This document shows, one piece after another, positions 10,884-34,641 of a stretch of DNA of 35,240 bases. The translations under genes and the position numbers were made by a program. Below the pieces are notes generated by a model. That model did not search any database. It was not told where the DNA came from and saw only the letters and a list, made by a program, of their open reading frames with translations. Source of the DNA: Fidelibacterota bacterium (GTDB taxonomy: Bacteria > Fidelibacterota > Marinisomatia > SCGC-AAA003-L08 > TS1B11); the NCBI GenBank assembly GCA_022574435.1, contig JACZSB010000002.1, positions 1 through 35,240 of the forward strand, read 5' to 3'. Positions within the stretch are counted from its first letter, which is position 1, and every line of letters starts with the position of its first letter.

Positions 10884-12932
10884 ATGCCGCCGGGGCTGAG
10901 ATTATCCGATCTGGGCTTGGGCACCGCCGTGATCTTAATTCTGGCGGTTATGCTGATCCCACTGCCCACCTTCCTGATGGACGTGTTCCTGGCCATGAAT
11001 ATTTTAGGGGCCCTGGTGATCCTGTTCGTGGCCCTGTATACCATTAGGCCGTTGGATTTTGCCGTCTTCCCCAGTCTGCTGCTCATGGTCACCCTGTTCC
11101 GGCTGTCTTTAAACGTGGCCACCACCCGCCTGATACTTGGCGAGGGCTACGCCGGTGAGGTGATCCAGGGGTTCGGCAGCTTCGTGGTGGCCGGCAACTA
11201 CGTCGTGGGCTTCATCATTTTCCTGATCCTGGTGCTGATCAATTTCCTGGTAATCACCAAGGGCGCTACCCGCATTGCCGAGGTAACCGCCCGCTTCACG
11301 CTGGATGCTATGCCGGGTAAGCAGATGGCCATCGACGCGGACCTCAATTCCGGTCTGGTAGATGAGGATGAGGCCCGCCAGCGCCGGCGCGACATTTCAA
11401 GGGAAGCCGATTTTTACGGGGCCATGGACGGTGCCAGCAAGTTCGTGCGGGGGGACGCCATTGCGGGGCTGATGATTACCGGTATCAATATTATCGGCGG
11501 GCTGGTGATCGGTACCTTGCAACTGGGAATGACCCTGGGCGACGCCGCCCGTAAGTATACCTTACTCACCGTGGGCGATGGTCTGGTGGCCCAGATCCCG
11601 GCCCTGATAGTTTCCACCGCCGCCGGCCTGATCGTGACCCGCTCAACCTCCGAGACGGATCTGGGCCGCGACGTGATAGCTCAGGTGTCCGACAAACCCA
11701 CAGCGCTGTATATTGCCGGTGGTACCCTGTTCCTGATCGGCGTGATCCCGGCCATGCCCGCCGCGCCCTTCATGGTGCTGGGTACAATGCTGGCCGGTTC
11801 AGGGTACATGACAGCCCGGACCAAGTTCTTAGCGGAGCAGAAACTGCAGGAGGCCGAAGAAGCCCAGGTGGAAGTGCCCGAAGAGCGGATTGAAAGTTAT
11901 TTACATCCCGATCCCTTTGAGATCGAAATCGGCTACGGCCTGATCAGTCTGGTGGATACCAACCAGGGTGGCGACCTGTTAAACCGCATATCTTCCATCC
12001 GCAAAAGCATCGCCCTGGAACTGGGTATCGTCATTCCGCCTATCCGCCTGCGGGACAATATCAATCTGGGGGCCAGCGAATATGTCTTTAAAGTCTATGG
12101 CATTGAGGTGGCCCGCAGCGAGGTAATGGTGGGCTATCACCTGGTGCTCAATCCCGATCCCGACGCCGGCCTGGTGGGTATTGATACAGTGGAGCCCACC
12201 TTCAAACTGCCGGCTCTGTGGGTTTCTGGTGAGCAAAAAGCCAAGGCCGAGGCAGCCGGCTTCACGGTGGTGGAACCGCCGGTGGTGGTGGCCACACACT
12301 TGATGGAGGTACTCAAAGCCAACGCCTATAAGCTGCTGGACCGGCAGGAAGTCAAGAAGATGCTCGATGATCTCAAGGAGGACAAGGCCGCCGTGGTGGA
12401 GGGGCTGGTGCCGGACCTGGTGCCCTTAGGGGTTATCCAGCAGGTCATGCGGAACCTGCTGCGGGAAGGGATCCCTATCCGCAACCTGGTCACAATCCTG
12501 GAGACTCTGGCCGATAGCGCCGCGGTTTCCAAGGACCCGGTATTGCTCACTGAGCATGTGCGTAGCGCCTTGGCCGATTCCATCACCGATCTATTCCAGT
12601 CTGGCGATAAGGCCATATCCGTAGCCACCTTGGAACCCCAATTGGAGGATCACATTCTGCAGGCCACTCGCAAAGGCGAGGCCTATGCGGGTAACCTGGG
12701 CTTCACGCCGCCCCAGGTAAAGGACGTTCTCACTTCTATAGGTGAGCAGGTGGAAAGAATTGTATTAGAGGGCGGCCGGCCGGCTCTGCTGGTCTCGCCT
12801 GCCATTCGCCGCTTTGTGCGGCAGTTCATTGAAACGGTGCTGCCCAACGTTGCGGTGCTTAGTTTCGCGGAATTATCACCGATTGTGGAACTCAAATCAG
12901 TAGGAGCAGTGAGGTATCCTGATGTTCGTTAA
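10884..12932 (+). CDS. flhA: Flagellar export platform protein FlhA
   Basis: FlhA is the nonameric export platform that binds chaperone-substrate complexes. The 682-aa product has eight predicted N-terminal membrane helices (first at about residues 13-33) and the FHIPEP-family cytoplasmic core, with ARFTLDAMPGKQMAIDADLN around residues 135-154 and DEARQRRRDISREADFYGAM just after. The C-terminal domain runs from about residue 330 to the end. A stop codon lies 15 bases before the ATG in frame, which limits the start. The 54-base gap after flhB contains the palindrome CCCGGCCGGG (10854-10863) and a weak GCGGGG ribosome site. flhF overlaps the last 11 bases. Confidence 0.98.
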   Translation: MPPGLRLSDLGLGTAVILILAVMLIPLPTFLMDVFLAMNILGALVILFVALYTIRPLDFAVFPSLLLMVTLFRLSLNVATTRLILGEGYAGEVIQGFGSFVVAGNYVVGFIIFLILVLINFLVITKGATRIAEVTARFTLDAMPGKQMAIDADLNSGLVDEDEARQRRRDISREADFYGAMDGASKFVRGDAIAGLMITGINIIGGLVIGTLQLGMTLGDAARKYTLLTVGDGLVAQIPALIVSTAAGLIVTRSTSETDLGRDVIAQVSDKPTALYIAGGTLFLIGVIPAMPAAPFMVLGTMLAGSGYMTARTKFLAEQKLQEAEEAQVEVPEERIESYLHPDPFEIEIGYGLISLVDTNQGGDLLNRISSIRKSIALELGIVIPPIRLRDNINLGASEYVFKVYGIEVARSEVMVGYHLVLNPDPDAGLVGIDTVEPTFKLPALWVSGEQKAKAEAAGFTVVEPPVVVATHLMEVLKANAYKLLDRQEVKKMLDDLKEDKAAVVEGLVPDLVPLGVIQQVMRNLLREGIPIRNLVTILETLADSAAVSKDPVLLTEHVRSALADSITDLFQSGDKAISVATLEPQLEDHILQATRKGEAYAGNLGFTPPQVKDVLTSIGEQVERIVLEGGRPALLVSPAIRRFVRQFIETVLPNVAVLSFAELSPIVELKSVGAVRYPDVR

Positions 12933-14094
12933 AAGTTATACTGCCGGCAGTGAAAGAGAAGCGCTGAACCTGGCTAAAGAGGACTTGGGCCCAGATATCA
13001 TGATTCTGGATCTTCGCCGTACGCCGGCGACCCTGCCGGGGCAGGAAAAAAGAGTAATGGTCACTGTTACTCCTGATGGCGCTCATAATGCCAACCCTCG
13101 TCCCGAGGCCGACAAACTGTTTCCCCGGCAATTGGCTCCCAAGGGGCCCGTGCGGCCGGGCCAGCTGTTGGAGACTTCCCCGATTCTGGATGAAAAGGAA
13201 GTGGCCGAGTTGTTCTACCTGCGCAAACAGATGCGCAACTTAAAAGCCCGCATCCGGGCCGGCCGCCATGTCCCCTTCGAGGAACCATTCAAATTTTGTT
13301 TCGATCTGCTGGCCGAATCCGGCGTGCCGGACCATATGGCCGAGTCGCTGGTTCAACGCACCGAGCAGCAGCTGGCCGAAGAAGCATTTACCTCCATGAC
13401 CGATCTGTCAGCAGTCAGCCGCGCCGTAGCCGTGAACGAGCTGCGCAACCAGATCCAACGACTGTTCGTCTCTGCGCCGGTCCCACCAGTAGGAGACGGC
13501 CAACAGGTAGTGGTCATGATCGGTCCTTCGGGCGCCGGAAAGACTTCCCTGATCACCAAGTTGGCTTCCCATAAAGAGGTCTATCGCGGTCGCCGGTTGG
13601 CGGTCATCTCCACCGACATCTATCGGGCCGGGGCCAACGCGGGGCTCAAGTCCATTTGTAAGATATTAGAGATTCCCATTGTCGAGGTCAAGCATCTGGA
13701 TGACATCCCCCGGGCCAAAAAGAACCTCTCAGACTTTGAGGTGCTCCTGGTGGATACCCCCGGCCGGAGTCCTCTGTCCAAGGAGTGCTTACCGGCACTG
13801 CAGACCCAATTGGCCCTGTTCAAACCCACCGAGACAATCCTGGTGCTAAGCGCCAACATGGGCATTGAGGAGTTATGGCTGTTCCTGGGGCTCTACCAGG
13901 GGGTGCATCCGACGGCCCTGGCGGTCACCAAGCTGGATGAAACCAGCCGTCCCGGTAAGGTACTGGGATTGGCCGACGATCCTAAACTGCCCCTAAAATA
14001 CATTTCCAACGGTCAGGCAGTGCCTCAAAGCCTGGCGACCCAGGTTGGGGAGGCGATCATAAAACAATTACCCCTCACGGGCGGGAAAGACTGA
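12922..14094 (+). CDS. flhF: Flagellar placement GTPase FlhF
   Basis: FlhF is an SRP-type GTPase that marks the site and number of flagella, often at a pole. This 390-aa protein has a basic N-terminal domain, a helical N-domain (about residues 90-185), and a G-domain with P-loop GPSGAGKT (201-208), DIYRAGA (232-238), DTPGR (278-282) and TKLDE (336-340), all intact. The start overlaps flhA by 11 bases and opens with MFVKSYTAG, close to the FlhF consensus. It is followed by flhG, its regulatory ATPase, so the host probably controls flagellar number and position strictly. Confidence 0.95.
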   Translation: MFVKSYTAGSEREALNLAKEDLGPDIMILDLRRTPATLPGQEKRVMVTVTPDGAHNANPRPEADKLFPRQLAPKGPVRPGQLLETSPILDEKEVAELFYLRKQMRNLKARIRAGRHVPFEEPFKFCFDLLAESGVPDHMAESLVQRTEQQLAEEAFTSMTDLSAVSRAVAVNELRNQIQRLFVSAPVPPVGDGQQVVVMIGPSGAGKTSLITKLASHKEVYRGRRLAVISTDIYRAGANAGLKSICKILEIPIVEVKHLDDIPRAKKNLSDFEVLLVDTPGRSPLSKECLPALQTQLALFKPTETILVLSANMGIEELWLFLGLYQGVHPTALAVTKLDETSRPGKVLGLADDPKLPLKYISNGQAVPQSLATQVGEAIIKQLPLTGGKD

Positions 14095-14095
14095 A

Positions 14096-14983
14096 GTGCT
14101 GACCAGCCAAGTGCAGAAGCCGGCAGCCAAACCCAAGTACAAGCAACGCCCATCGGCGGTGCAGCAGTACCTCCCCGAGATAATCACCATCACCTCCGGC
14201 AAGGGCGGGGTGGGCAAGACCAACCTGGCGGTGAACCTGGGTATCCTCCTGAGCCAGCGCAAGCAAAGGGTCCTGCTGATGGACGCCGACCTGCAACTGG
14301 GCAAGCTGGATGTGATCCTGGGCGCTTCGCCCCGTTATACACTGGCCGACCTGGTGGAAGGGCGCAAGACAATTGATGAAATCATCATGCACCATCCCTC
14401 AGGGATCGACATATTGCCGGCCACCTCCGGTGATCTGGACCTGCTGGACGCCGACGACCGGATGCTTAAGGTATTAGCCAATTCGTTTTCTTCCATTCAG
14501 TCCCTTTACGACTACCTGATCGTCGATACCGGCGCGGGACTCTCCCCGACGGTGCTCACCATGGCGCTGGGAGCCGACAAGGTTATCCTGCTGGTGACCC
14601 CGGAGCCGGCCTCGGTTTCGGATGTGTACGCCATGATCAAGGTGATCAGCCAGAAAGCGCCTGACCTGCCATTGATCCTGGTGCCCAACCGCCATTCGTC
14701 GCTCGAAGATGGGGTGGAGTTGCATAAAAAGTTGAACCTGATTACCCAGAAGTTCCTCAAAACTACCATCTACTACGGCGGCTCCATCGTGGAAGATAAC
14801 GCCGTGCGCCAGGCTGTAATACGACAACGGCCCTTCGTGACGGAATTTCCCAATAGCCAGGCGGCCAATAACCTGCAGCTGGTTTGCCACCGGCTGCTGA
14901 AATTTCCACGCCAGGATTTCGACCGCCGTTCAAATATCTTTGATCGGCTGAAGGAAAAGCGTAAAGTCATGGAAACGGCCTAG
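14096..14983 (+). CDS. flhG: Flagellar number regulator FlhG (MinD-like ATPase)
   Basis: FlhG (FleN, YlxH) is a MinD/ParA-type ATPase that stimulates FlhF GTP hydrolysis and limits flagellar number. The deviant Walker A motif is KGGVGKT at residues 36-42, followed by MDADLQLGKLDV and the switch-II-like VDTGAGLSPTV. The N-terminal tail is basic and Gln-rich, as in FlhGs that carry an FlhF-activating peptide; I do not see a clear DQAxxLR motif, only QYLPEII before the first strand. The GTG start lies one base after the flhF stop. Length of 295 aa is typical. The basic C-terminal end probably acts as the membrane-binding helix. Confidence 0.93.
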   Translation: MLTSQVQKPAAKPKYKQRPSAVQQYLPEIITITSGKGGVGKTNLAVNLGILLSQRKQRVLLMDADLQLGKLDVILGASPRYTLADLVEGRKTIDEIIMHHPSGIDILPATSGDLDLLDADDRMLKVLANSFSSIQSLYDYLIVDTGAGLSPTVLTMALGADKVILLVTPEPASVSDVYAMIKVISQKAPDLPLILVPNRHSSLEDGVELHKKLNLITQKFLKTTIYYGGSIVEDNAVRQAVIRQRPFVTEFPNSQAANNLQLVCHRLLKFPRQDFDRRSNIFDRLKEKRKVMETA

Positions 14984-14984
14984 A

Positions 14985-15224
14985 ATGAGCTCGACCATTT
15001 ACCAGTTGACCCTGATTATCGGGATGGGTACCTTGATCACGTTGCTGATCAGGGGCATGAGCCTGGGAATCGCCCTTTACCGGAGCATCGTGGTGATCAT
15101 GGTGATGCTGGGATTGCTCCTGGCGGCCGGTATTATAGTGAAATGGGCCACTATTCCCAAGCCCCCGGAATCCGAAATCAAGGATTCGGAAACCGACCTG
15201 GAAGTGGTTGATAACACGAAATGA
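14985..15224 (+). CDS. Small two-helix membrane protein between flhG and sigma-28
   Basis: I do not recognise a family. The 79-residue product has two hydrophobic helices (about residues 6-22 and 32-52, the latter IVVIMVMLGLLLAAGIIVKW) joined by an Arg-containing turn, and a short acidic C-terminal tail. Its ATG is one base after the flhG stop and its last four bases overlap the sigma-28 start (ATGA), so it is almost certainly translated with both. The coupling and sensible codon use support a real gene. A role in membrane tethering of FlhG, or in gating sigma factor output, would be speculation. Confidence 0.7.
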   Translation: MSSTIYQLTLIIGMGTLITLLIRGMSLGIALYRSIVVIMVMLGLLLAAGIIVKWATIPKPPESEIKDSETDLEVVDNTK

Positions 15225-15994
15225 GTACTACCGTTACAGATAGCCGGGAACATAATGGCGAAACACTCCTGCGGGAATACTACGCCACCAAGGATCCCAT
15301 CCTGCGGGAGCGGGCGATCCGGGAGTTCTTGCCGCTGGTCTACTACGTGGTCAACCGTGTTACCCTGCCCGCTACCGACGCCATCACCCGGGAAGACCTG
15401 GAACAGAGCGCCATTCACGGCCTGCTGGAGGCCATCGAACGCTTCGACGAAACGCGGCAAGTTAAATTTAAGACCTTTGCCTATAAACGCATCTACGGCG
15501 CTGTTATCGACGCCATCCGGCAAGTACGCATCCTCAGCCGCACTAAACTCGAGCGCCTGATGAGAGTACAGCGCATTACCGAAGAGCTGACCCAGAAGCT
15601 CCACCGGGAGCCACTCCCTGATGAAGTTTGCGAGGCAGCCAATATTTCTCCCAGCGAGCACTCGAGTTTACTGGTGGCTGGGCAGCTGAGCTATGCCACT
15701 TTTTCACTGGACGATCCGGTCCTGGGAGAACCGGAAGGCTCCGTCAGGCAGATTGATCTGCTGGCGGATGTGGAATCTGAAGACCCGGAGAAGTCTTATA
15801 TGATGGAGAACCTGAAGGCCCGTTTGGTCAACATGATCAAAGAGCTCCCCGAAAGAGAGCGTTTGATTCTGGCTCTATACTACTATGAAAACCTTACCCT
15901 GGTAGAGATCGGCAAGGTGCTGAGTATATCCGAATCGCGGGTATCCCAGATCATGAGTAAGTCGATGGACAACCTGCGAGGCAAATTAAAATGA
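15221..15994 (+). CDS. fliA: RNA polymerase sigma-28 factor, FliA/WhiG family
   Basis: FliA directs transcription of late flagellar genes (flagellin, cap, chemotaxis). The 257-aa protein has region 2 at about residues 38-105 (DLEQSAIHGLLEAIERFDE, then FKTFAYKRIYGAVID), region 3 with LTQKLHREPLPDEVCEAA (about 122-139), and region 4 ending in the helix-turn-helix TLVEIGKVLSISESRVSQIM. All are strongly FliA/SigD-like. The ATG overlaps the stop of the small membrane protein by four bases. The next gene overlaps its own stop. No recognisable FlgM anti-sigma factor is nearby. Confidence 0.96.
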   Translation: MSTTVTDSREHNGETLLREYYATKDPILRERAIREFLPLVYYVVNRVTLPATDAITREDLEQSAIHGLLEAIERFDETRQVKFKTFAYKRIYGAVIDAIRQVRILSRTKLERLMRVQRITEELTQKLHREPLPDEVCEAANISPSEHSSLLVAGQLSYATFSLDDPVLGEPEGSVRQIDLLADVESEDPEKSYMMENLKARLVNMIKELPERERLILALYYYENLTLVEIGKVLSISESRVSQIMSKSMDNLRGKLK

Positions 15995-16287
15995 TCGATA
16001 TCCTCGATCCGAACCAGGGATTGCCGCAACCGGTGCCGGTTACCACCCAGCCGGTGGAACCGGTGGATACCGATAACGTCAGTATTCATGATAACCGGCT
16101 GGAGGAGGAGAAACGTTCCGGCCAGGAAGACCAACTGCAAGAGCGCAGGAAGCAAAAAAAAGGGGACGTAGTGGAATTGTCCAGTCGAACGGGGGCTCAG
16201 CATTCGGAAGAGGAAAAGTCGGAGGACGACACGGGCCATCAAGGCCCCGAAACAGATGAACACCAGATCGATATCATCATTGAGTAA
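15991..16287 (+). CDS. Small hydrophilic protein coupled to sigma-28
   Basis: A 98-residue, highly charged, Pro/Glu/Gln-rich protein with no membrane segment; most of it should be disordered. The only family-like element is GDVVELSSRTG (about residues 58-68), which resembles the short D-x-VELS motif near the front of FlgM and several flagellar cytoplasmic proteins. The C-terminal sigma-binding helices of FlgM are not visible. The ATG overlaps the sigma-28 stop by four bases, which favours a real, co-translated gene, and its end overlaps the next gene by 32 bases. It could be a divergent anti-sigma factor or an unrelated filler protein; I do not assign a function. Confidence 0.6.
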   Translation: MIDILDPNQGLPQPVPVTTQPVEPVDTDNVSIHDNRLEEEKRSGQEDQLQERRKQKKGDVVELSSRTGAQHSEEEKSEDDTGHQGPETDEHQIDIIIE

Positions 16288-17086
16288 AATTCTATTGCTG
16301 GCCGCCATAATGGTGGGCGGGTCCGTCCAGGGCGGCTCAGGGAAGTATATAGCTTTTTTCTCCGCCGAACAGGAACATTACCGGCGGATTCTGATCGACG
16401 GTGTCGGCAACCGGCACGTAAACGTAGAGCTGGATAGTTTGGGCCAGTGCGAGATCAGAATCTGGGGCGCCTCCGAAAAATCGTATGTGGGTCTTAGAAA
16501 CTATTCTAAAGGCTACCTGATCCCGGTGCACATCAAAGTGGAATTCCCTGAGAAGCAGCTTATGTTGATTAAGGTTTATGGGACCCGTTTTAAGGAAGTA
16601 GTGAAATTCCGCGAAGTTGGGTCGGGCCTGTACGTCATTGACTTGTACGTCCGGCGCCTACCCCAGGAGAGCATTTTCCGTGAAGAGACCATCAGCGCCT
16701 TATGGCCGGGCGGCCGGTTCCAGCCGGATGTTATCCCCGGAGGGGGCGCTACGGTACAACTGGCGGCAGCGCATAAGATAAGTTTTATTCCACCGGTATT
16801 GGCCAAACTGGCCCCCTATCGTTATGTGATATACCGGGCCATGTTCTGGGCCGCCGCCGTATTTGCCGGCCTGTTTATAACCGGCATACCGTTGATTATT
16901 CTCATGCGCCGCCGGAGAACTCACCGCCTGTTCGGCTCCCGGCAGGGTAAGGGCTCCACCCGGCTGGATATGGCGGATGCCGCTACGGTCCGCGCCCAGA
17001 ATATGATGAAACACAATGGCGACCTCAGTTTTGAAGAGGCCACACTGATGGCCGATTTGGAAAAGGACCCCGCTGGCCGCTCCTGA
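16256..17086 (+). CDS. Exported membrane-anchored protein of unknown function
   Basis: I do not recognise the family. The 276-aa product has an N-terminal signal sequence (SLSKILLLAAIMVGGSVQGG, residues 8-27), an extracytoplasmic beta-rich domain of about 160 residues, one membrane helix at about residues 196-215 (AMFWAAAVFAGLFITGIPLI), and a basic cytoplasmic tail of about 55 residues. The order resembles a periplasmic sensor or assembly factor with a cytoplasmic contact arm. In Bacillus the gene after sigD is swrB, also a membrane protein with a cytoplasmic part; that is only a positional parallel. The ATG is chosen because it gives a good signal peptide; it overlaps the previous gene by 32 bases. 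Confidence 0.72.
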   Translation: MNTRSISSLSKILLLAAIMVGGSVQGGSGKYIAFFSAEQEHYRRILIDGVGNRHVNVELDSLGQCEIRIWGASEKSYVGLRNYSKGYLIPVHIKVEFPEKQLMLIKVYGTRFKEVVKFREVGSGLYVIDLYVRRLPQESIFREETISALWPGGRFQPDVIPGGGATVQLAAAHKISFIPPVLAKLAPYRYVIYRAMFWAAAVFAGLFITGIPLIILMRRRRTHRLFGSRQGKGSTRLDMADAATVRAQNMMKHNGDLSFEEATLMADLEKDPAGRS

Positions 17087-17110: not shown

Positions 17111-17911
17111 ATGCTCAGACTAGATTATCTAGACCAGTTCGGCGCGCTCCTGGAGAAGAGCCTCTCCAGTGACGAAACCTACGACGCAGTCCTCGGAATC
17201 CTCGAACAAGTCATCGATTACAATTCCGCCACCCTGTTTATTAACGACCCCGTTACTAACCGGCTGGAAGTATCCCAGTCCCACGGGCAGGGCATTGTCG
17301 ACCTGATCGTGGAGGTCACTTTCGAGCGGGGCGAAGGGTTGAGCGGTTGGGTGGCTTCGCAACATGCCCCCGTGATTTTTTCGGCCATCCATACGGAGAA
17401 CCGGGATAGCCGATTCCACTCCCTGGTTTCCATGCCTCTTTGGTCCGAGGACCGGCTGCTGGGGGTGCTCAACCTGGGACACTCCCGGTCCGGGTTCTAC
17501 CGGCAGGAACATAAACCGGAATTCCAGAAATTGGCATCGCAACTTTCAATGATCGTTGAACAGTTGCGGCTCCGGGATGAGCTTAAGGCGAAAAACAGTC
17601 GGCTTGAGGAGTTGCTGGCAGAGCTGCGGACGGCCCAACAGGCCCTGGTGGAAAAGGAACGCCTGGCGGCCATCGGTGAAGTGGTCGTAAAGATCAAGCA
17701 TGAAATCAACAACCCATTATCGGTCATCATCGGATTCGTCGATCTGTTGAGCATGGAATGCCCCGAGGCCCTGCCGGAGTTCGCCGCGAACTTGGCCAAG
17801 ATCAAGACAGCTGCCAAGCAGATCGAGAGCCTTACCAAAGCCTTGGAGAACGTGGAATCGAGCCAGGCGGAGGAATATCACGCCGGCGTTAAGATGTTGA
17901 AAATTGATTAG
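17111..17911 (+). CDS. GAF-domain protein with histidine-kinase DHp helix and no ATPase domain
   Basis: Residues about 10-150 form a GAF domain (strand NRLEVSQSHGQGIV, then GEGLSGWVASQHAPVIF). A coiled coil follows (about 150-185), then a HisKA-type dimerisation helix with ERLAAIGEVVVKIKHEINNP, in which His197 is the expected phosphorylation site. The protein ends at residue 266 with no N, G1 or G2 ATP-binding boxes, and the 225 bases downstream do not encode them. It is thus a kinase-like protein without its own catalytic domain. It might accept phosphate from another kinase, act as a dimeric scaffold, or be a shortened kinase. It ends the sigma-28 group, 24 bases after the previous gene. 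Confidence 0.87.
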   Translation: MLRLDYLDQFGALLEKSLSSDETYDAVLGILEQVIDYNSATLFINDPVTNRLEVSQSHGQGIVDLIVEVTFERGEGLSGWVASQHAPVIFSAIHTENRDSRFHSLVSMPLWSEDRLLGVLNLGHSRSGFYRQEHKPEFQKLASQLSMIVEQLRLRDELKAKNSRLEELLAELRTAQQALVEKERLAAIGEVVVKIKHEINNPLSVIIGFVDLLSMECPEALPEFAANLAKIKTAAKQIESLTKALENVESSQAEEYHAGVKMLKID

Positions 17912-18083: not shown

Positions 18084-18099
18084 TGGCACGGCATTTGAA
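18084..18099 (+). promoter_or_regulatory. Candidate sigma-54-type promoter of the flgF-flgL block
   Basis: TGGCACG (18084-18090), four bases, then TTGAA (18095-18099) matches the -24/-12 consensus TGGCACG-N4-TTGCA at all positions except that the -12 GC is GA. Spacing is exact. Transcription would begin near 18110, about 27 bases before flgF, leaving room for GTGGAG as ribosome site. In many bacteria rod, hook and ring genes are sigma-54 dependent, which fits the location. The altered -12 base and the lack of rpoN or an activator gene in this window keep confidence modest. Confidence 0.45.
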
Positions 18100-18136: not shown

Positions 18137-18850
18137 ATGGATTTTAATCTCGGCAGGATCGCCCGTAATATGACCAGAAACCTGTTCGGTACTGATATTA
18201 TCGCCAACAACCTGGCTAATACCAGCACCACCGGTTTTAAACGGGACGCCGCGTTTACCGACGCGTATATGGAGGCCGTCCAACAGGGCGCCTCCAAGAG
18301 CTATACCAACTTTTCCCAAGGGGAAATGATACACACTGCAAATTCCCTGGATTTTGCCATCACCGGTACCGGCTTTTTTGTGGTCCAGACCGAATTGGGG
18401 CTGGCCGTCACCCGTAACGGACATTTCCAAGTCGATGCCCAGGGTATGCTGGAAACAGCTGCGGGCGAGCTGGTATTGGGCGAGCATGGACCGATGTCAA
18501 TTATTGCCAGCGGTGATACTCCCGGCCAGGTGCTGGTGACCCGGCAGGGAGAGTTATATGTGGACGATGTTTTTATTGATACCCTGGCAATCGCCCAGGT
18601 AGCCGATCTCCAAGCGCTGGAGAAAATCGGCTCCAACCTATTCAAGGTCGGCAATGATATCCTGATGACCCAGCTGGACCAGGAACTGATCGACATCCGC
18701 CAGGGGATGCTGGAAGGGTCGAATGTCTTGCCGGTGGTTGAGATGGTAACCATGATCGACCTGCAACGTAATTATGAATCAACTCAACGGGTGGTCAAAG
18801 CCATGGACCAGATTCTGGGACGGGCCATTCAGTTGGGTGAGTACCGCTAA
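18137..18850 (+). CDS. flgF: Flagellar basal-body rod protein FlgF
   Basis: FlgF is a proximal-rod subunit. The 237-aa product has the N-terminal rod motif IIANNLANTSTTGFKRD (residues about 21-37), the LDFAITGTGFFVVQT strand shared by the FlgF/FlgG/FlgE group, and the C-terminal helix with VEMVTMIDLQRNYESTQRV. It is shorter than FlgG and precedes it, as flgF normally does. It could equally be named a FlgG paralogue, since the two are separated by subtle differences. GTGGAG lies about five bases before the ATG. flgG follows after nine bases. Confidence 0.9.
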   Translation: MDFNLGRIARNMTRNLFGTDIIANNLANTSTTGFKRDAAFTDAYMEAVQQGASKSYTNFSQGEMIHTANSLDFAITGTGFFVVQTELGLAVTRNGHFQVDAQGMLETAAGELVLGEHGPMSIIASGDTPGQVLVTRQGELYVDDVFIDTLAIAQVADLQALEKIGSNLFKVGNDILMTQLDQELIDIRQGMLEGSNVLPVVEMVTMIDLQRNYESTQRVVKAMDQILGRAIQLGEYR

Positions 18851-26636: not shown

Positions 26637-26656
26637 TTGGTGGAGGGTTGACTAAA

Positions 26657-27652
26657 ATGGGATTCCTGGAACAGCAACTTAAGAGAGAATACAAGTCGGG
26701 GCAGGTTATTTTCAAGGACGGTGACCCCGGCCAGACCATGTTCATTATCCTGGAAGGTAAGGTTGAAATCACCAAATTGCTGGGGGATCAGAAAACGGTA
26801 CTGGCCACATTGGATAAGGGTTCGATCTTCGGAGAGATGGCGATCATCGACCGGGAACCCCGATCGGCCACCGCCACCACACTTAGTGATACCGTGATGC
26901 TCGAGATCAGCCGGGAGATGTTTCATGACCGATTGTCCCAAGTGCCGGGCTGGATGCAGAGCTTCTTTGCCATTTTAGTGGACCGCTTGCGTTCTGCCAC
27001 CCGCCTCCAGAGTATATTGCTCACCCAGGGCGCCGCCCGCCAGATACTCAATCTACTGGCTGTGCTGGTTCAATCGGGCGATAAAGATGCCACCGACCGG
27101 GTCATATTGCCGATAAATGAAACCGCAGGCAAGATGGCTTTTATCCTGGGCCTTGAAGAAGAGCTGGTGAGTAAAACTATTATGCGGTTTATCGACAGTA
27201 AACTCTGCGAAGTAGCCCGGAAGATTGATGCGGGCCGGGTACTGGTGTTCGATAACACCGAAAAGCTGTTTCAACTGGCTCGTTTCTGCAAGGAGAGGAT
27301 GCTCATCGAATCCGGTTTGATCAAGACCATGTCGGAGGAATTCCGGTTTAAAAGCCGGCACGAGGTGGAGCTGTTGCAAGTGCTGTCGGCGCTTGTTCAG
27401 GATCCGGACGTGCCCGATGACATGTCCGCCTCCAAAATGGATGAACGGGTAAAGGAGAAATATAAGAATCCCATCGGGCTCTACCAGCCTCTCCTGGACA
27501 ACTTTGTCAAGGTCGGTCTGTTGGAAAAATTCCAACCCAAGGATGGCGATCCGTCCTACGCGATCAACAATAAAGAGCTATTCCAAGACCAGTTGGCCAA
27601 AATCAGTTTAGTTAAGGAGTTACGAGGGTTGGAGAATAAAATCCGCCGTTGA
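26657..27652 (+). CDS. Cyclic-nucleotide-binding (CAP_ED) regulator with extended C-terminus
   Basis: Residues about 1-120 form a cyclic-nucleotide-binding domain. The phosphate-binding cassette FGEMAIIDREPRSATA (58-73) retains Glu60 and Arg69, the residues that bind the sugar and cyclic phosphate, so ligand binding is likely. A winged-helix-like region follows (LPINETAGKMAFILGLEEEL, about residues 152-171), then a further domain of about 110 residues that is not part of standard Crp/Fnr proteins and may be a second helical or winged module. The ATG at 26657 is preferred to the TTG at 26648 because GGAGGG ends at 26647. The last four bases overlap the next gene. Confidence 0.8.
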   Translation: MGFLEQQLKREYKSGQVIFKDGDPGQTMFIILEGKVEITKLLGDQKTVLATLDKGSIFGEMAIIDREPRSATATTLSDTVMLEISREMFHDRLSQVPGWMQSFFAILVDRLRSATRLQSILLTQGAARQILNLLAVLVQSGDKDATDRVILPINETAGKMAFILGLEEELVSKTIMRFIDSKLCEVARKIDAGRVLVFDNTEKLFQLARFCKERMLIESGLIKTMSEEFRFKSRHEVELLQVLSALVQDPDVPDDMSASKMDERVKEKYKNPIGLYQPLLDNFVKVGLLEKFQPKDGDPSYAINNKELFQDQLAKISLVKELRGLENKIRR

Positions 27653-28851
27653 AGTACCCGGAGGAACCGTCCCTGGGCGATATCACCCTCTGCTTGGTGG
27701 TAAAGCATCGCACCGGGAACCTGGCCAATGTTCTGCACTCGGTCAATCGGCTGGTTTCCCGGATGGTGGTTCTGGAGGCGGTTGGCCAGGGCACTAAAAC
27801 AGTGCAGCACCTGGCTTCTGAGTACGATGCCGACTACCTGCACGTTCCGCCAAATCCTGACCATGCCTTTTTGCTCAACCGGGTATTGGATCGGGTCGAC
27901 ACTATTTGGGCCTTATTCCTCAACCAGCCGGAAGTGCTGCATCTGGACGATCAACAAACTTTGCTGAAGATCCTCGGTAATACCGAGGCCATTGCTTTTG
28001 ACTTCCCCATCATAAGACTGTCTGAGCCTGATAACCACCACTTCGAAACCCGGCTGATTAGAAGCGATAGGGGTATACATTGGCAGCATGCCATATATCC
28101 AACGTTGGTGGACAGTCTGCAGCTCGCCGGCCAGCAGTTACAGCAACCACCGGTGACCGAAATAATGCCTACGGTGGCGGTGGTCAGTTTGGGGGAACCG
28201 CGCCCGGAGGAAAGGGAATTGCAGGAGGCTTTGGGTAGCATCGAGGCAGAGCTCAATCGTGATCCCAATTCGATTCGCTACTGGTACCATCTGGCCCGGG
28301 TGGCCCGGCAGCTCCAGGATTGGCAAAAGTCGCACGATGCGGTGGAAGAAGGTTTGAATGTTATCAGCCGTCAGGCGGATACGGCTTTTGCCGAACCTGA
28401 TGCGGCCAACGGCCTGATCGGCATGTTCTGTGAGGCCCTGCTGTCCGGCCAATTCCAGCCTGATAAAACGGTGCAATCGCTCTGGACGATCTTCAACAAC
28501 ATGGTCTCCGATGGCCGTTTCAGCCTGCCACTGGGGCGACTGTTGTTATCTACGGGCCAACGGAAAGAAGCCATTTCCGCCCAGCTGGCTGCAATGGAAA
28601 CTTTCTTTAGCCAGCGCAAGTATCATTTGTCCCTGGAAAACGGCCTCTTCCGGCCGGCGTTGTTTATCTGGGAGGTGGAGGCCGGTCATGGGAGTCGCGC
28701 CCTGTTGACCAGCGTAGTGAATGTGCAAACTATCTTGAAGCCGCAAAATTTCAATTTTCAGTTGGTGCTGGAGTATGTCTTCGAGCAAAATCGGGACCTG
28801 TTTGCCCGGCTACAGCAGGTCCTCCAGCGCAGTTTGCGGGCCAAGGAATAA
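27649..28851 (+). CDS. Degenerate GT2 glycosyltransferase-like protein with TPR-type C-terminus
   Basis: The first 165 residues follow the outline of the GT2/TPR family: ITLCLVVKHRTGNLANVLHS corresponds to the usual LCMIVKNE..L..CL.S start, and RLIRSDRGIHWQHAIYP to the acceptor-side end. The nucleotide-sugar motifs are lost: the VDTGSTDGT loop is VLEAVGQGTKT and the LDADE metal site is LNQPEVL. The remaining 230 residues are helical, with a tetratricopeptide-like run (SIRYWYHLARVARQLQDWQK, about residues 205-224). It starts at a TTG overlapping the regulator stop (TTGA). Catalytic activity is doubtful; a binding or scaffold role beside flagella or surface glycans is possible. No signal peptide. 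Confidence 0.62.
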   Translation: MKYPEEPSLGDITLCLVVKHRTGNLANVLHSVNRLVSRMVVLEAVGQGTKTVQHLASEYDADYLHVPPNPDHAFLLNRVLDRVDTIWALFLNQPEVLHLDDQQTLLKILGNTEAIAFDFPIIRLSEPDNHHFETRLIRSDRGIHWQHAIYPTLVDSLQLAGQQLQQPPVTEIMPTVAVVSLGEPRPEERELQEALGSIEAELNRDPNSIRYWYHLARVARQLQDWQKSHDAVEEGLNVISRQADTAFAEPDAANGLIGMFCEALLSGQFQPDKTVQSLWTIFNNMVSDGRFSLPLGRLLLSTGQRKEAISAQLAAMETFFSQRKYHLSLENGLFRPALFIWEVEAGHGSRALLTSVVNVQTILKPQNFNFQLVLEYVFEQNRDLFARLQQVLQRSLRAKE

Positions 28852-31017: not shown

Positions 31018-31983
31018 ATGGACCGCGACCAACCCGATCGCCAACTGACCCACCTGGATAGCCGGGGCCGCGCGCGCATGGTGGACGTCAGTGACAAGCC
31101 CGTGACCAGCCGGATAGCGGAGGCCAGCGGGTTCATCAGCCTGCAACCGGAAACCTTGGAGGCCCTTTATTCGGGGCAGGTGCCCAAAGGCGACGTGTTG
31201 AGCACGGCCCGACTGGCGGGCGTGGCGGCCGCCAAACAGACTGCTACCCTGATCCCACTGTGCCACCCCCTGAACTTGACCTGGGTGGACCTGGAGTTCA
31301 CGGCCCGCGATGACGGAATCGCCATCGGTTGCACCGTCAAGGCCCGCGAGGTGACCGGCCTGGAAATGGAGGCGTTGACCGCCGTCTCGGTGGCTGCTCT
31401 GACCATTTATGACATGTGCAAGGCTATCGACCGTAGTATGCGGATCGGTGATATCCGCCTGGTGCGCAAGGAAGGGGGGAAATCATCGCATCAGCCGGCC
31501 TACCGTCCCCGGACGGCCGTGCTAGTCGTGTCCGATTCCGCCGCCTCCGGTGAGCGCCAGGACCGTTCCGGGGCCCTCCTGAGGGAGGGCTTTCTGCTGG
31601 CAGGTTGCCAGGTGGACCCCGTGTTGGTGGTACCAGACGAGCCTGACCAACTGTTAGCCGCCGCCCGGAAATTCCTCGATAAAGGTATTGAACTGCTGAT
31701 TACCACCGGAGGCACCGGACTGGGTCCCCGGGATATTACTATTCCCACCCTGGAGCAGCTGCTGGACGACCGCTTGCCGGGGGTGGAGCAGGCCCTGCAT
31801 GCCGTGGGGCGCACCCAAACCCCCCTGGCCATGCTCTCCAAACTGGCGGTTGGGACAGCCGGTAAGGGGATCATCGTTTCTCTTCCGGGCAGCTCGGCCG
31901 CCTGCCGGGACGCTTTGACGGTACTGATCCCGGCCATTTTCCACGCCTTTGAGGTGCAAAAAGGCGCCGGGCACGGCGATTAG
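31018..31983 (+). CDS. moaCB: Bifunctional MoaC/MoaB molybdenum-cofactor protein
   Basis: Two Moco enzymes are fused. Residues 1-155 are MoaC, which with MoaA makes cyclic pyranopterin monophosphate: [20 protein letters not shown], then [21 protein letters not shown] and [20 protein letters not shown] are all intact. Residues about 163-321 are MoaB/MogA, which adenylylates molybdopterin: [38 protein letters not shown], and the closing [21 protein letters not shown] Lys-rich linker (KEGGKSSHQ) joins them. The fusion is known in several phyla. The start follows the moaA relic and gives the full MoaC N-terminus. Confidence 0.95.
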
Positions 31984-32001
31984 CCCCGCCAACTCACCAG
32001 T

Positions 32002-32742
32002 ATGACTACTTTCCTGCTGCCCCTGATCTTCATGGTGGTGGCCCTGGTCTATTCCGCGGTGGGGCTGGGTGGAGGCTCCACTTACGTGGCCATATTGGCG
32101 CTCACCGGTATGGACCACCAACAACTGCCCACCATTTCCCTGTCGCTCAACCTGGTGGTCACCAGCGTGGGAATCTACAATTTCCGCCGCCACGACCACA
32201 TCCGCTTCGACCTGATCTGGCCGTTCCTGATCACCTCGCTACCTATGGCTTATTTGGGCGGATCGCTGCAGTTGTCCCGGCTAACTTTCCTATGGCTGCT
32301 ATTTATTACGCTGCTGTTCGTGGCGGTGCGCATTTATCTTTGGCGCGAAGTCACCTTTAACTTGCACCTCAATCATCTCGGGCGCCGGGCAACCATGCTG
32401 GCCTCGGGCGCTGCGCTGGGATTTGTAGCCGGTACAGTGGGTATCGGCGGCGGTATCCTGCTGGTACCCCTCATGATTATGTTAAGTTTGGCCAGGGAGC
32501 AGGAGGCGGCTGGGGCCGGGGCGGTTTTTGTATGGGTTAACTCGGCCATGGGACTGATTGCCCGTTTCAACCGGCAAGCGTTTGATCCTGACCTGATTGT
32601 GCCGCTGGTAGTGGCCGTAATTGTGGGCGCCGGGATCGGCTCGTACCTGGGCGCCGCCCGGCTCAAGCCCCGGTCGGTGCAACTAATTATGGGGGTAGTG
32701 ATCCTGATGGCCTTGGTGTCAATTGGGGGGCAACTGCTATGA
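32002..32742 (+). CDS. TauE/SafE-family membrane permease
   Basis: This 246-aa protein is almost entirely membrane helices (about eight) with an internal duplication. The two half-repeats carry the family glycine motifs VYSAVGLGGGSTYVAILALT (about residues 16-35) and FVAGTVGIGGGILLVPLMI (about 140-158). The family moves sulfite, sulfoacetate or other small organosulfur anions, and the substrate is not readable from sequence. It lies inside the Moco operon, with a four-base overlap into moeA, so a link to sulfur oxyanions handled by a molybdoenzyme is possible but unproven. Confidence 0.87.
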   Translation: MTTFLLPLIFMVVALVYSAVGLGGGSTYVAILALTGMDHQQLPTISLSLNLVVTSVGIYNFRRHDHIRFDLIWPFLITSLPMAYLGGSLQLSRLTFLWLLFITLLFVAVRIYLWREVTFNLHLNHLGRRATMLASGAALGFVAGTVGIGGGILLVPLMIMLSLAREQEAAGAGAVFVWVNSAMGLIARFNRQAFDPDLIVPLVVAVIVGAGIGSYLGAARLKPRSVQLIMGVVILMALVSIGGQLL

Positions 32743-33968
32743 AGAGCGTCCCGGAAGCCCGGAAAATCGTGGCGGCCGCCGTCCCCGTTCCAACGTCGGA
32801 ACTGGTCCCCCTGGCCGAATTGACCGGCCGGGTGCTGGCCGAGCCTATATTGGCCCCCTTTCCCCGGCCCCGGTACACAGATTCCGCCATGGATGGCTTT
32901 GCGGTACGTACCGCCGATCTGGCCCGCGCCGACAGACAAAATCACATCGCTCTACGTTTGGTGGGGGTCACCGCAGCCGGGGCCCGGGAGCCGGGGGTCG
33001 TCGGTCCCGGAGAATGCCGGCAGGTGATGACCGGAGCGGCCATCCCTGAGGGGGCCGATGCCGTGGTCAAAGTGGAGGATACCAGCGGCTTCGAAAAGGA
33101 GCCGGTGCAGGTTTACCATGCTCCCCAGGTTGGAGAAAACATGCGTAAGGCCGGTGAGGAAATCCCAGCTGGGGAGCTGCTACTGAGCCCGGGTGCTCGA
33201 TTTGGGCCTGGTGAGTTGGGCATCCTGGCGGGCTGCGGTTTGGATACAGCGTCTGTTTATCTCCGGCCCCCGGTAGCCCTGATCACCACGGGTAACGAAC
33301 TGGTCCGGCCGGGAGAACCCTTATCTCCGGGGATGATATATAATTCCAATCTACCGGTGCTGCGGACCCTGGCGGAGCTGGCCGGGGCTACTATAATCTC
33401 GGCTGAGACCGTTCCTGATGACCAGCAGGCTCAGCGGGACAGTGTCGCCCAAGCGTTGGAACAGGCTAAATTGGTGGTGGTTAGCGGTGGTGTATCCATG
33501 GGGCGCTTCGATCATGTTCGGGAAGTTTTACGGTCACAGGGCATCCGGGAGCGGTTCTGGCGGGTGGCTCAGAAGCCGGGCAAACCGCTCTACTTCGGTA
33601 CCGGCCCTGACACCCTGGTGTTCGGTTTACCGGGGAACCCGGTGTCGGCATTTATCTGCTTCATGGAGTTCATTTGGCCCGCGCTGGAGAGCCTCCAGGG
33701 TTTAGCTCCCAGGCCCCAACTGCGAGGGACATTATCAGCCCCCTATCCCCGGGAGCGGAAGCTCTGGCGCTTCCTGCTCGGGGAGGCCTGGGTGCAGGTT
33801 GGCCGTCTAATGGTGCGGCCCTCCGGGAAGCGCGGCTCTCACATGTTCACCACCACCCTGAAGGCCAATTGCATCCTGTCAGCATCACCAGGTGAAGGCC
33901 CGCTTGAGGAAGGGGCGGAAATCTCCGTCCGGTTGCTGCCCTGGACTATGTTGCCGGGGGAAGCATGA
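32739..33968 (+). CDS. moeA: Molybdopterin molybdenumtransferase MoeA
   Basis: MoeA inserts molybdate into adenylylated molybdopterin. The 409-aa product has the family blocks in order: YTDSAMDGFAVRTADL (about residues 47-62), MTGAAIPEGADAVVKVEDT, GENMRKAGEE, TTGNELVRPGE, VVSGGVSMGRFDHVREVL with its catalytic acidic residue, QKPGKPLYFG, and GLPGNPVSAFICF. Nothing is missing and the length is standard. ATGA couples it to the permease, and the same arrangement couples it to moaD. It works after the MoaB domain of the upstream fusion. Confidence 0.97.
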   Translation: MKSVPEARKIVAAAVPVPTSELVPLAELTGRVLAEPILAPFPRPRYTDSAMDGFAVRTADLARADRQNHIALRLVGVTAAGAREPGVVGPGECRQVMTGAAIPEGADAVVKVEDTSGFEKEPVQVYHAPQVGENMRKAGEEIPAGELLLSPGARFGPGELGILAGCGLDTASVYLRPPVALITTGNELVRPGEPLSPGMIYNSNLPVLRTLAELAGATIISAETVPDDQQAQRDSVAQALEQAKLVVVSGGVSMGRFDHVREVLRSQGIRERFWRVAQKPGKPLYFGTGPDTLVFGLPGNPVSAFICFMEFIWPALESLQGLAPRPQLRGTLSAPYPRERKLWRFLLGEAWVQVGRLMVRPSGKRGSHMFTTTLKANCILSASPGEGPLEEGAEISVRLLPWTMLPGEA

Positions 33969-34222
33969 CCGGGCCGGAGGTTAAAATCACCGTGCTACTT
34001 TTTTCCCACCTGCGGCACGCACTGGGCAGCGGGAAGTTGACCATCACCTTGGCAACCGGTTCCACCGCCGCCGACCTGGTAGGCCATATCCGGGAAATGC
34101 TTGAGGAGCGCCTGGCCGGAATGCCCATGCGGGTGGCCGTTAATGGGCAGTTTGCCACCGATGATACCATCCTCCAGGCCGGTGACGAGGTAGCCCTGAT
34201 TCCACCCGTGCAGGGGGGTTGA
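33965..34222 (+). CDS. moaD: Molybdopterin synthase small subunit MoaD
   Basis: MoaD is a ubiquitin-fold sulfur carrier; its C-terminal Gly-Gly is thiocarboxylated and gives sulfur to cyclic pyranopterin monophosphate. The 85-aa product ends PPVQGG as required, preceded by DEVALIPPV, the standard tail. The N-terminal strand ITVLLFSHLRHALG fits the family. It overlaps moeA and moaE by four bases each. The activating enzyme (MoeB) and the sulfur source are not in this window. Confidence 0.95.
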   Translation: MTGPEVKITVLLFSHLRHALGSGKLTITLATGSTAADLVGHIREMLEERLAGMPMRVAVNGQFATDDTILQAGDEVALIPPVQGG

Positions 34223-34224
34223 AG

Positions 34225-34641
34225 ATGGTGATGACCGAACTGGTGGAAGGACCGCTGCCGCAATTGGCGGAAGCTCAGGGGCTGACCGAAACAGGCGCAG
34301 AAGTAATTTTCCATGGCCGGGTGCGGGATCGGGAGCAGGGCCGGGAGATTGTGGCCCTGTATTACGAGGCTTATGCCTCCCTGGCCGACCACGAGCTGCG
34401 CGCCATCGGTGAGGAAACGGCCAGCCGCTATTCCCTTCTGGACCTTACCTGCCATCATCGGATAGGGGAGGTGCCGGTGGGGGCAGTCTCATTGCGGGTG
34501 GTGGCCCTGGCCCGGCATCGGGAAGCTGCCCTGGAGGCGGTGACCTGGATGGTGGATCAATTGAAGCGCCGGGTGCCGATCTGGAAGTGGGGCGTGCTAT
34601 CTTCCGGTGAGCGGTTCCCTTCAGGACTGGCGACAAAATGA
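34225..34641 (+). CDS. moaE: Molybdopterin synthase large subunit MoaE
   Basis: MoaE pairs with MoaD to form molybdopterin synthase. The product (138 aa) has GAEVIFHGRVRDREQGREIV (about residues 24-43), then YEAYASLADHELRAI, HHRIGEVPVGAVSLRVVALA, and the active-site lysines in DQLKRRVPIWKWG. The ATG at 34225 is preferred over a TTG four bases before the moaD end (34219), because AGGGGGG would then be well spaced; the choice adds or drops only two residues. It is the last gene of the Moco operon. Confidence 0.95.
   Translation: MVMTELVEGPLPQLAEAQGLTETGAEVIFHGRVRDREQGREIVALYYEAYASLADHELRAIGEETASRYSLLDLTCHHRIGEVPVGAVSLRVVALARHREAALEAVTWMVDQLKRRVPIWKWGVLSSGERFPSGLATK

Follow-up and report, generated by a model that had tools for sequence, protein, structure and literature searches.

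The flagellar gene cluster of the window (the whole 35,240-nucleotide stretch of DNA analysed here, from a MAG of 3.05 Mb) encodes a protein, GAF-DHp, that joins a GAF domain to a histidine-kinase dimerisation (DHp) hairpin and lacks an ATPase domain. GAF-DHp probably transfers or removes phosphate within the two-component system that switches on the rod and hook genes. Our favoured reading, to which we assign a probability of roughly one half, is that the flagellar sigma-54 system has in GAF-DHp a dedicated phospho-histidine module without an ATPase domain, which would be loaded in trans and would exchange phosphate with the receiver protein REC1, the NtrC-type regulator, or both. A sequence-only reading of the same DNA had proposed either a phosphotransfer hub phosphorylated in trans or a dimeric scaffold; its interpretation as a whole is partly supported, and comparison with related genomes favours predicted trans-phosphorylation. 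The anatomy, conservation and linkage of the protein, together with the neighbouring promoter sites, can be read from the genomes themselves and are described first.

The GAF-DHp gene (17111..17911, + strand) begins with ATG and encodes 266 amino acids comprising a GAF domain, a coiled coil and a HisKA (DHp) hairpin. Residues 18–150 (17162..17560, +) matched Pfam GAF_2 (8.3e-12) and residues 194–252 (17690..17866, +) matched Pfam HisKA (5.4e-10), both above the curated cut-offs. His197 (codon CAT, 17699..17701, +) lies in the H-box HEINNP, within IKHEINNPL. Past the HisKA match the protein has only about 14 residues and hence no CA-like domain; 13 of these form a conserved C-terminal tail, EEYHAGVKMLKID (17870..17908, +). 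Neither HATPase nor Hpt, the latter the feature of monomeric HPt proteins, gave a Pfam match in the window protein at E<=1. Of the features of HisKA-class histidine kinases, GAF-DHp therefore has the DHp with its H-box and lacks a HATPase_c on the same chain, and it is presumably unable to phosphorylate itself. The open reading frame and Pfam matches thus bear out the architecture first described for this protein, i.e., GAF, coiled coil and DHp with an intact HEINNP and a missing ATPase domain. The claim that no trace of a catalytic domain follows also stands, given that the same tail ends the proteins of relatives and that a sigma-54-type site lies in the 225 nt downstream. An AF2 model, built from an input of three near-identical rows, placed helices over the HisKA/DHp region; its mean pLDDT was 46, and therefore only the helix pattern was taken from this low-confidence model. 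In a profile search, the best solved-structure match of the GAF domain was NLH1 (PDB 4g3k; E 1.6e-14), itself a sigma-54 activator of Aquifex; here, in contrast, the GAF domain sits on a DHp protein.

Homologues of GAF-DHp (E<=1e-15) were detected in 36 of 245 genomes of the uncultured phylum Marinimicrobia, all of them among the 42 genomes that encode FlhA. The gene was present in 36/42 genomes with FlhA and 0/203 without it (Fisher 3e-37, kinship ignored), and because its presence tracks FlhA we regard it as a flagellar gene of the phylum rather than a local accident. Wherever the contig permits inspection, it sits in the fliA-flgF cluster, which is where the sequence-only reading had suggested looking for it. 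Among the other FlhA-encoding genomes, G003 lacks the gene between orf276 and flgF, G143 and G144 have at this position a degenerate form of 227 aa, the contigs of G202 and G216 stop short of this place, and the flhA locus obtained for G009 (70% complete) shows no fliA or flgF. A sister MAG contains two versions of the locus, on two contigs (L006 and L007) that each carry flagellar genes around GAF-DHp; their proteins share 98% and 94% identity with the window protein and most simply represent two strains in one assembly. Synonymous codon changes relative to these copies exceeded non-synonymous ones (8 v 6 and 25 v 16), and this excess, together with homologues of the same length in 36/245 genomes, indicates that the gene is real. 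Outside the phylum, a single genome-contig scan returned the sister MAG only and a plasmid scan returned no homologues; similar tails may occur in Deltaproteobacteria, which we treat as a lead only.

The ATPase domain is absent throughout this distribution. Homologue frames are mostly 255–312 aa long, with two of only 155 and 214 aa at contig edges, and the homologues are overall as little as ~31% identical to the window protein. Both GAF_2 and HisKA were found in 28/28 of the full-length homologues scanned, and HATPase in 0/28. Relatives with a HATPase fused at the same locus had been named as the sign of a simple truncation in the window; they were sought and not found, and none of the 36 genomes has a frame at the homologue locus long enough to accommodate this domain.

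The H-box and tail are strongly conserved in an alignment of 37 homologue rows, of which two are truncated where their contigs end. The family has an almost invariant H-E-[IV]-N-N-P, with His197 retained in 35/37 rows, E198 and N200 in 36/37 each, N201 in 34/37 and P202 in 37/37. His and Glu are both kept in 34/37 rows, the exceptions being G016, G063 and G068. In G068, E198 is replaced by K, while G016 has K in place of His yet retains the E, N, N and P. The tail is present in 34 rows, and its residues Tyr256 and Met262 do not vary among them. The rows without a tail are G041, where the contig ends, and the two that lack His, G016 and G063. Hence GAF-DHp shows the feature typical of Spo0B and ChpT, a DHp-like hairpin (HisKA 28/28) with a conserved phospho-acceptor His (35/37).

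The location of the gene in a flagellar operon was confirmed by the gene order flhA-flhF-flhG-fliA-orf98-orf276-GAF-DHp-flgF-flgG. All of the genes given here lie on the + strand: flhA, flhF and flhG upstream in the same cluster (10884..14983; flhG start 14096), fliA encoding sigma-28 (15221..15994; Sigma70 r2/r3/r4), orf98 (15991..16287), orf276 directly upstream of GAF-DHp (16256..17086), and flgF (18137..18850). The conserved proteins orf98 and orf276 have no Pfam match and are assigned to the cluster by synteny; they recur at the same place in the window's family, and ORFs of similar size occur there in other families. Further along the window, csrA is followed at 26648-28851 by a cyclic-nucleotide-binding-domain protein (334 aa) and possibly a TPR-like protein, and the flagellar cluster is followed at 31018-34641 by molybdenum cofactor genes (a moaC-mog fusion, a TauE-type exporter, moeA, a moaD-like gene and moaE).

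The 225 nt between the end of GAF-DHp and flgF contain a sigma-54-type −24/−12 site, TGGCACGGCATTTGAA (18084..18099, +; TGGCA-N6-TTG), and flgF is the first gene behind it. We searched for the pattern TGGCA-N6-TTG, allowing T or C at the first base and A or C at the fifth, at most 90 nt upstream of the gene. Such a site was present before flgF in 30/30 loci (0.12 expected by shuffles) and before flgB in 30/30 loci (0.05 expected by shuffles), so that both elements are well supported as putative sigma-54 sites. The sigma-54-like promoter initially proposed from one sequence therefore holds up as a candidate site across the phylum. A link to a sigma-54 activator, at first an attractive idea, now appears strong, judging from the sites at flgF and flgB in 30/30 loci each and from the NtrC-type regulator encoded beside flgB. 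The base after TTG at flgF is A in the window's family and C outside it, except in G062; at flgB sites (e.g., L127) it is A, T or G, not C. Two genome-scale measures were uninformative: TGGCAC-N5-TTGMW had four genome-wide matches compared to three for a reversed control pattern, and RpoN, being encoded in 219/245 genomes, does not serve as a marker of the GAF-DHp system.

The NtrC-type regulator consists of REC, Sigma54_activat and Fis HTH domains and is encoded directly upstream of flgB-flgC. In the window's own genome it lies on contig C43, in the order FapA - REC1 - REC2 - FlrB-like kinase - NtrC-type regulator - flgB - flgC. In the sister genome, one contig carries both the regulator (2.5 kb) and GAF-DHp (31 kb), so that the two loci are parts of a single cluster. 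A search with the regulator gave matches in 42/245 genomes (E<=1e-115), among them a few paralogues and genomes without FlhA, and regulator loci were obtained for 40 of these 42; the acceptor Asp of the regulator is kept in 40/40. "FlrB-like" is a label based on the position of the kinase next to the regulator and on its short HisKA-HATPase architecture, not on comparison with FlrB of V. cholerae. Such a kinase precedes the regulator in 11/11 genomes of the window's family, although the G010 copy is a fragment and in G005 kinase and regulator are on two separate contigs. Among the other 29 genomes with regulator loci, it does so only in G015 and G016; in most genomes outside the window's family the regulator instead follows REC2, REC1 or (in G062) FapA, without an intervening kinase gene.

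Outside the window's family, a complete kinase is encoded directly upstream of GAF-DHp. This PAS-HisKA-HATPase protein (~385–422 aa) was found in 22/245 genomes (E<=1e-40), and comparison of coordinates placed its 3' end within ~100 nt of the GAF-DHp gene in 22/22. Since no kinase gene adjoins the regulator in most genomes outside the window's family, the PAS-kinase is the natural candidate kinase for the regulator. It was not detected in 14/36 GAF-DHp genomes: nine belong to the window's family, G016 has a PAS-less DHp-HATPase gene in its place, G062 and G194 have a REC-HisKA-HATPase gene there, and in G065 and G124 this place is cut by contig ends. The PAS-kinase was found in 0/11 genomes of the window's family, where the closest match in the window's own genome is a generic kinase (1.3e-19). 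The term "orphan" originally applied to GAF-DHp is thus only partly apt, as 22 genomes have an adjoining complete kinase and the window's family has a FlrB-like kinase at the flgB locus. The search of relatives for a neighbouring kinase or NtrC-type regulator, likewise proposed from the single sequence, located the former beside GAF-DHp in 22 genomes and the latter at the flgB locus. Where loci are assembled, the type of complete kinase varies by clade (PAS-kinase, REC-kinase or FlrB-like). Because the kinase differs in this way while GAF-DHp, the regulator and, with exceptions, REC1 persist, GAF-DHp appears to be a common hub and not a part of one kinase.

We aligned 25 upstream kinases, i.e., the 22 PAS-kinases, the two of G143 and G144 and the PAS-less one of G016. 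Their own His is kept in 25/25, and the acid that follows it is lost in 9/25 (f30, f26, f6 and G218). This acid is considered important for the catalytic activity of HisKA kinases. Its loss from kinases, set against the retained H and E of GAF-DHp, fits a predicted role of GAF-DHp as phospho-acceptor in trans. In G143 and G144 (L069 and L070), the ATPase motifs of the PAS-kinase are degenerate, its His is kept and the adjoining GAF-DHp has no H-box; kinase and GAF-DHp here are apparently a doubly decayed pair. Two further proteins occur at or near these kinases and in G194, respectively. A ~90–110 aa protein without a Pfam match precedes the PAS-kinase outside the window's family (L052:7853-8167 and equivalents) and is absent together with it in the window's family. 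G194 encodes a second ATPase-less DHp protein (GAF-PAS-HisKA, 445 aa; L058:11569-12906, −) that has a terminal tail like that of the GAF-DHp family.

Of the two receiver proteins, REC1 is the better candidate partner. It comprises REC, GAF and a further C-terminal part, and its acceptor Asp is kept in 34/34. Its GAF domain is related to that of GAF-DHp (hhalign probability 97) and also has NLH1 (4g3k) as its best solved-structure match. The Asp of REC2 is lost in 8/32 genomes, including f8, f26 and f31 with His-intact GAF-DHp, and REC2 was ruled out as a Spo0F-like step. In the genomes whose GAF-DHp lacks His, no REC1 was present at the readable regulator loci (G016, G063 and G144), and searches by sequence and profile detected none anywhere in the genomes of G016, G063 and G143/G144. 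An FlhA tree resolves these as three separate His/REC1 losses. Among the 34 His-intact genomes, REC1 occurs in 29 and as a fragment in G041; it was not found in G062, G010 (67% complete, with N runs), G208 and G218 (locus cut by a contig edge). A naive Fisher test of REC1 against His gave 9.5e-4 (30/34 v 0/4), counting the G041 fragment as present and ignoring kinship. An independent-pairs sign test was not significant (p 0.25–0.5); it left out G010, G208, G218 and G143 for their REC1 state and G003, G009, G202 and G216, which have no GAF-DHp, and G203 had no FlhA row. G003 keeps REC1, the FlrB-like kinase and the regulator and has lost GAF-DHp from an otherwise similar fliA-flgF cluster (L067). 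We regard the co-loss of His and REC1 as a lead, not proof.

For the favoured module, we infer dimerisation, phosphorylation, the direction of transfer and the GAF signal from these patterns. GAF-DHp would dimerise through its DHp, either with itself or with the kinase. His197 would receive phosphate in trans, either from the ATPase domain of the kinase or from a phosphorylated receiver, of which REC1 is the best candidate, and GAF-DHp would then pass phosphate to REC1 or the FlrC-type regulator or withdraw it from them. The GAF domain may control this exchange, which would in turn set the timing of rod and hook gene transcription. A more specific version, which we advance tentatively, is a relay from kinase, via REC1 where it takes part, to and from the ATPase-less GAF-DHp and on to the FlrC-type activator, with interchangeable kinases. 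In some families, the chief part of the acid-less PAS-kinase would then be to supply the ATPase of a split kinase, with GAF-DHp as its working phospho-acceptor. Such a relay would be analogous to KinA-Spo0F-Spo0B-Spo0A and, if true, would make GAF-DHp a checkpoint that merges a second signal into the control of flagellar assembly.

Since HExxN is about as conserved as His, phosphatase action alone also fits. GAF-DHp would in that case be a stand-alone phosphatase or phosphate sink whose HExxN dephosphorylates REC1~P or the FlrC-type regulator on a GAF signal, with no need of ATP or of His197 phosphorylation. The isolated DHp of EnvZ dephosphorylates its regulator, and the conservation of E198 (36/37) and N201 (34/37), as well as the G016 protein that exchanged His for K and kept E, N, N and P, are in keeping with this activity. 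However, the His is often dispensable for a pure phosphatase, whereas here it is conserved in 35/37 rows and the tail was lost together with it in G016 and G063, and we consider this explanation doubtful. It is also unlikely that GAF-DHp is a mixed-dimer partner or scaffold, whose hairpin would insert into the kinase dimer so that the GAF domain modulates the kinase and His197 phosphate is not needed, in the manner in which RetS acts on GacS. GAF, coiled coil and DHp are all common dimerisation elements, and the gene directly follows that of the PAS-kinase in all 22 genomes that have one; a scaffold would nevertheless have no use for an intact H-box, and its partner would have had to change in f1, where GAF-DHp persists without the PAS-kinase. 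Finally, a truncated kinase was ruled out (36 genomes without HATPase, a common C-terminus, HATPase in 0/28), and the kinship in architecture with kinases notwithstanding, the same phylum-wide pattern, with H-box and tail conserved despite ~31% identity, refutes a decaying remnant that recently lost its ATPase domain, which we hold to be extremely improbable.

The favoured ATPase-less module has partial counterparts in known systems. Spo0B and ChpT work in multi-protein relays, between REC domains, and Spo0B has a CA-like C-terminal domain. Such proteins, like PhyT, establish that a DHp protein derived from a kinase can act as a phosphotransferase (PMC3433190, PMC5898713). Spo0B of B. subtilis and ChpT of Caulobacter share with GAF-DHp a DHp-like hairpin with a phospho-accepting His and a lack of self-phosphorylation, the latter predicted for GAF-DHp; in ChpT, a C-terminal domain of atypical Bergerat fold is also present (PMC3433190). 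In contrast to both, GAF-DHp has no CA-like domain and has an N-terminal GAF domain and the 13-residue conserved tail. By analogy, it would resemble a DHp phosphotransferase in its working, and it departs from the named members in the CA-like domain. PhyT/PhyP of Sphingomonas was initially regarded as a phosphatase, before transfer of phosphate to it from a single-domain regulator was demonstrated (PMC5898713). It is, like GAF-DHp, a DHp protein derived from a histidine kinase without a working ATPase; unlike GAF-DHp, it is described there with an HRxxN-type (HWE/HisKA_2-like) DHp, a degenerate ATPase domain, a membrane anchor and a role in the general stress response instead of the flagellum.

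In FlrB/FlrC, FleS/FleR and FlgS/FlgR, an NtrC-type regulator, a kinase and sigma-54 promoters control the rod and hook genes (PMC7064773, PMC12607845), and the sensor domains of the flagellar kinases vary between species (PMC7064773). The Marinimicrobia locus likewise has an NtrC-type regulator linked to flagellar genes and putative sigma-54 sites on the rod/hook operons; the tie of GAF-DHp to such an FlrBC/FlgSR-type system is seen as co-occurrence and adjacency. In the accounts considered here, the described systems consist of kinase and regulator, with no additional ATPase-less GAF-DHp or REC-GAF protein. Among the matches listed in our literature searches, no publication dealt with an ATPase-less DHp protein encoded among flagellar genes, and none with flagellar regulation in Marinimicrobia.

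If the favoured reading is true, the timing of flagellar gene expression across the phylum has an extra phospho-step beyond plain kinase-regulator pairs, and a DHp phosphotransferase can exist without any CA-like domain. The combination of a kinase that varies by clade with a hub that is retained would also provide a natural experiment on the rewiring of two-component circuits.
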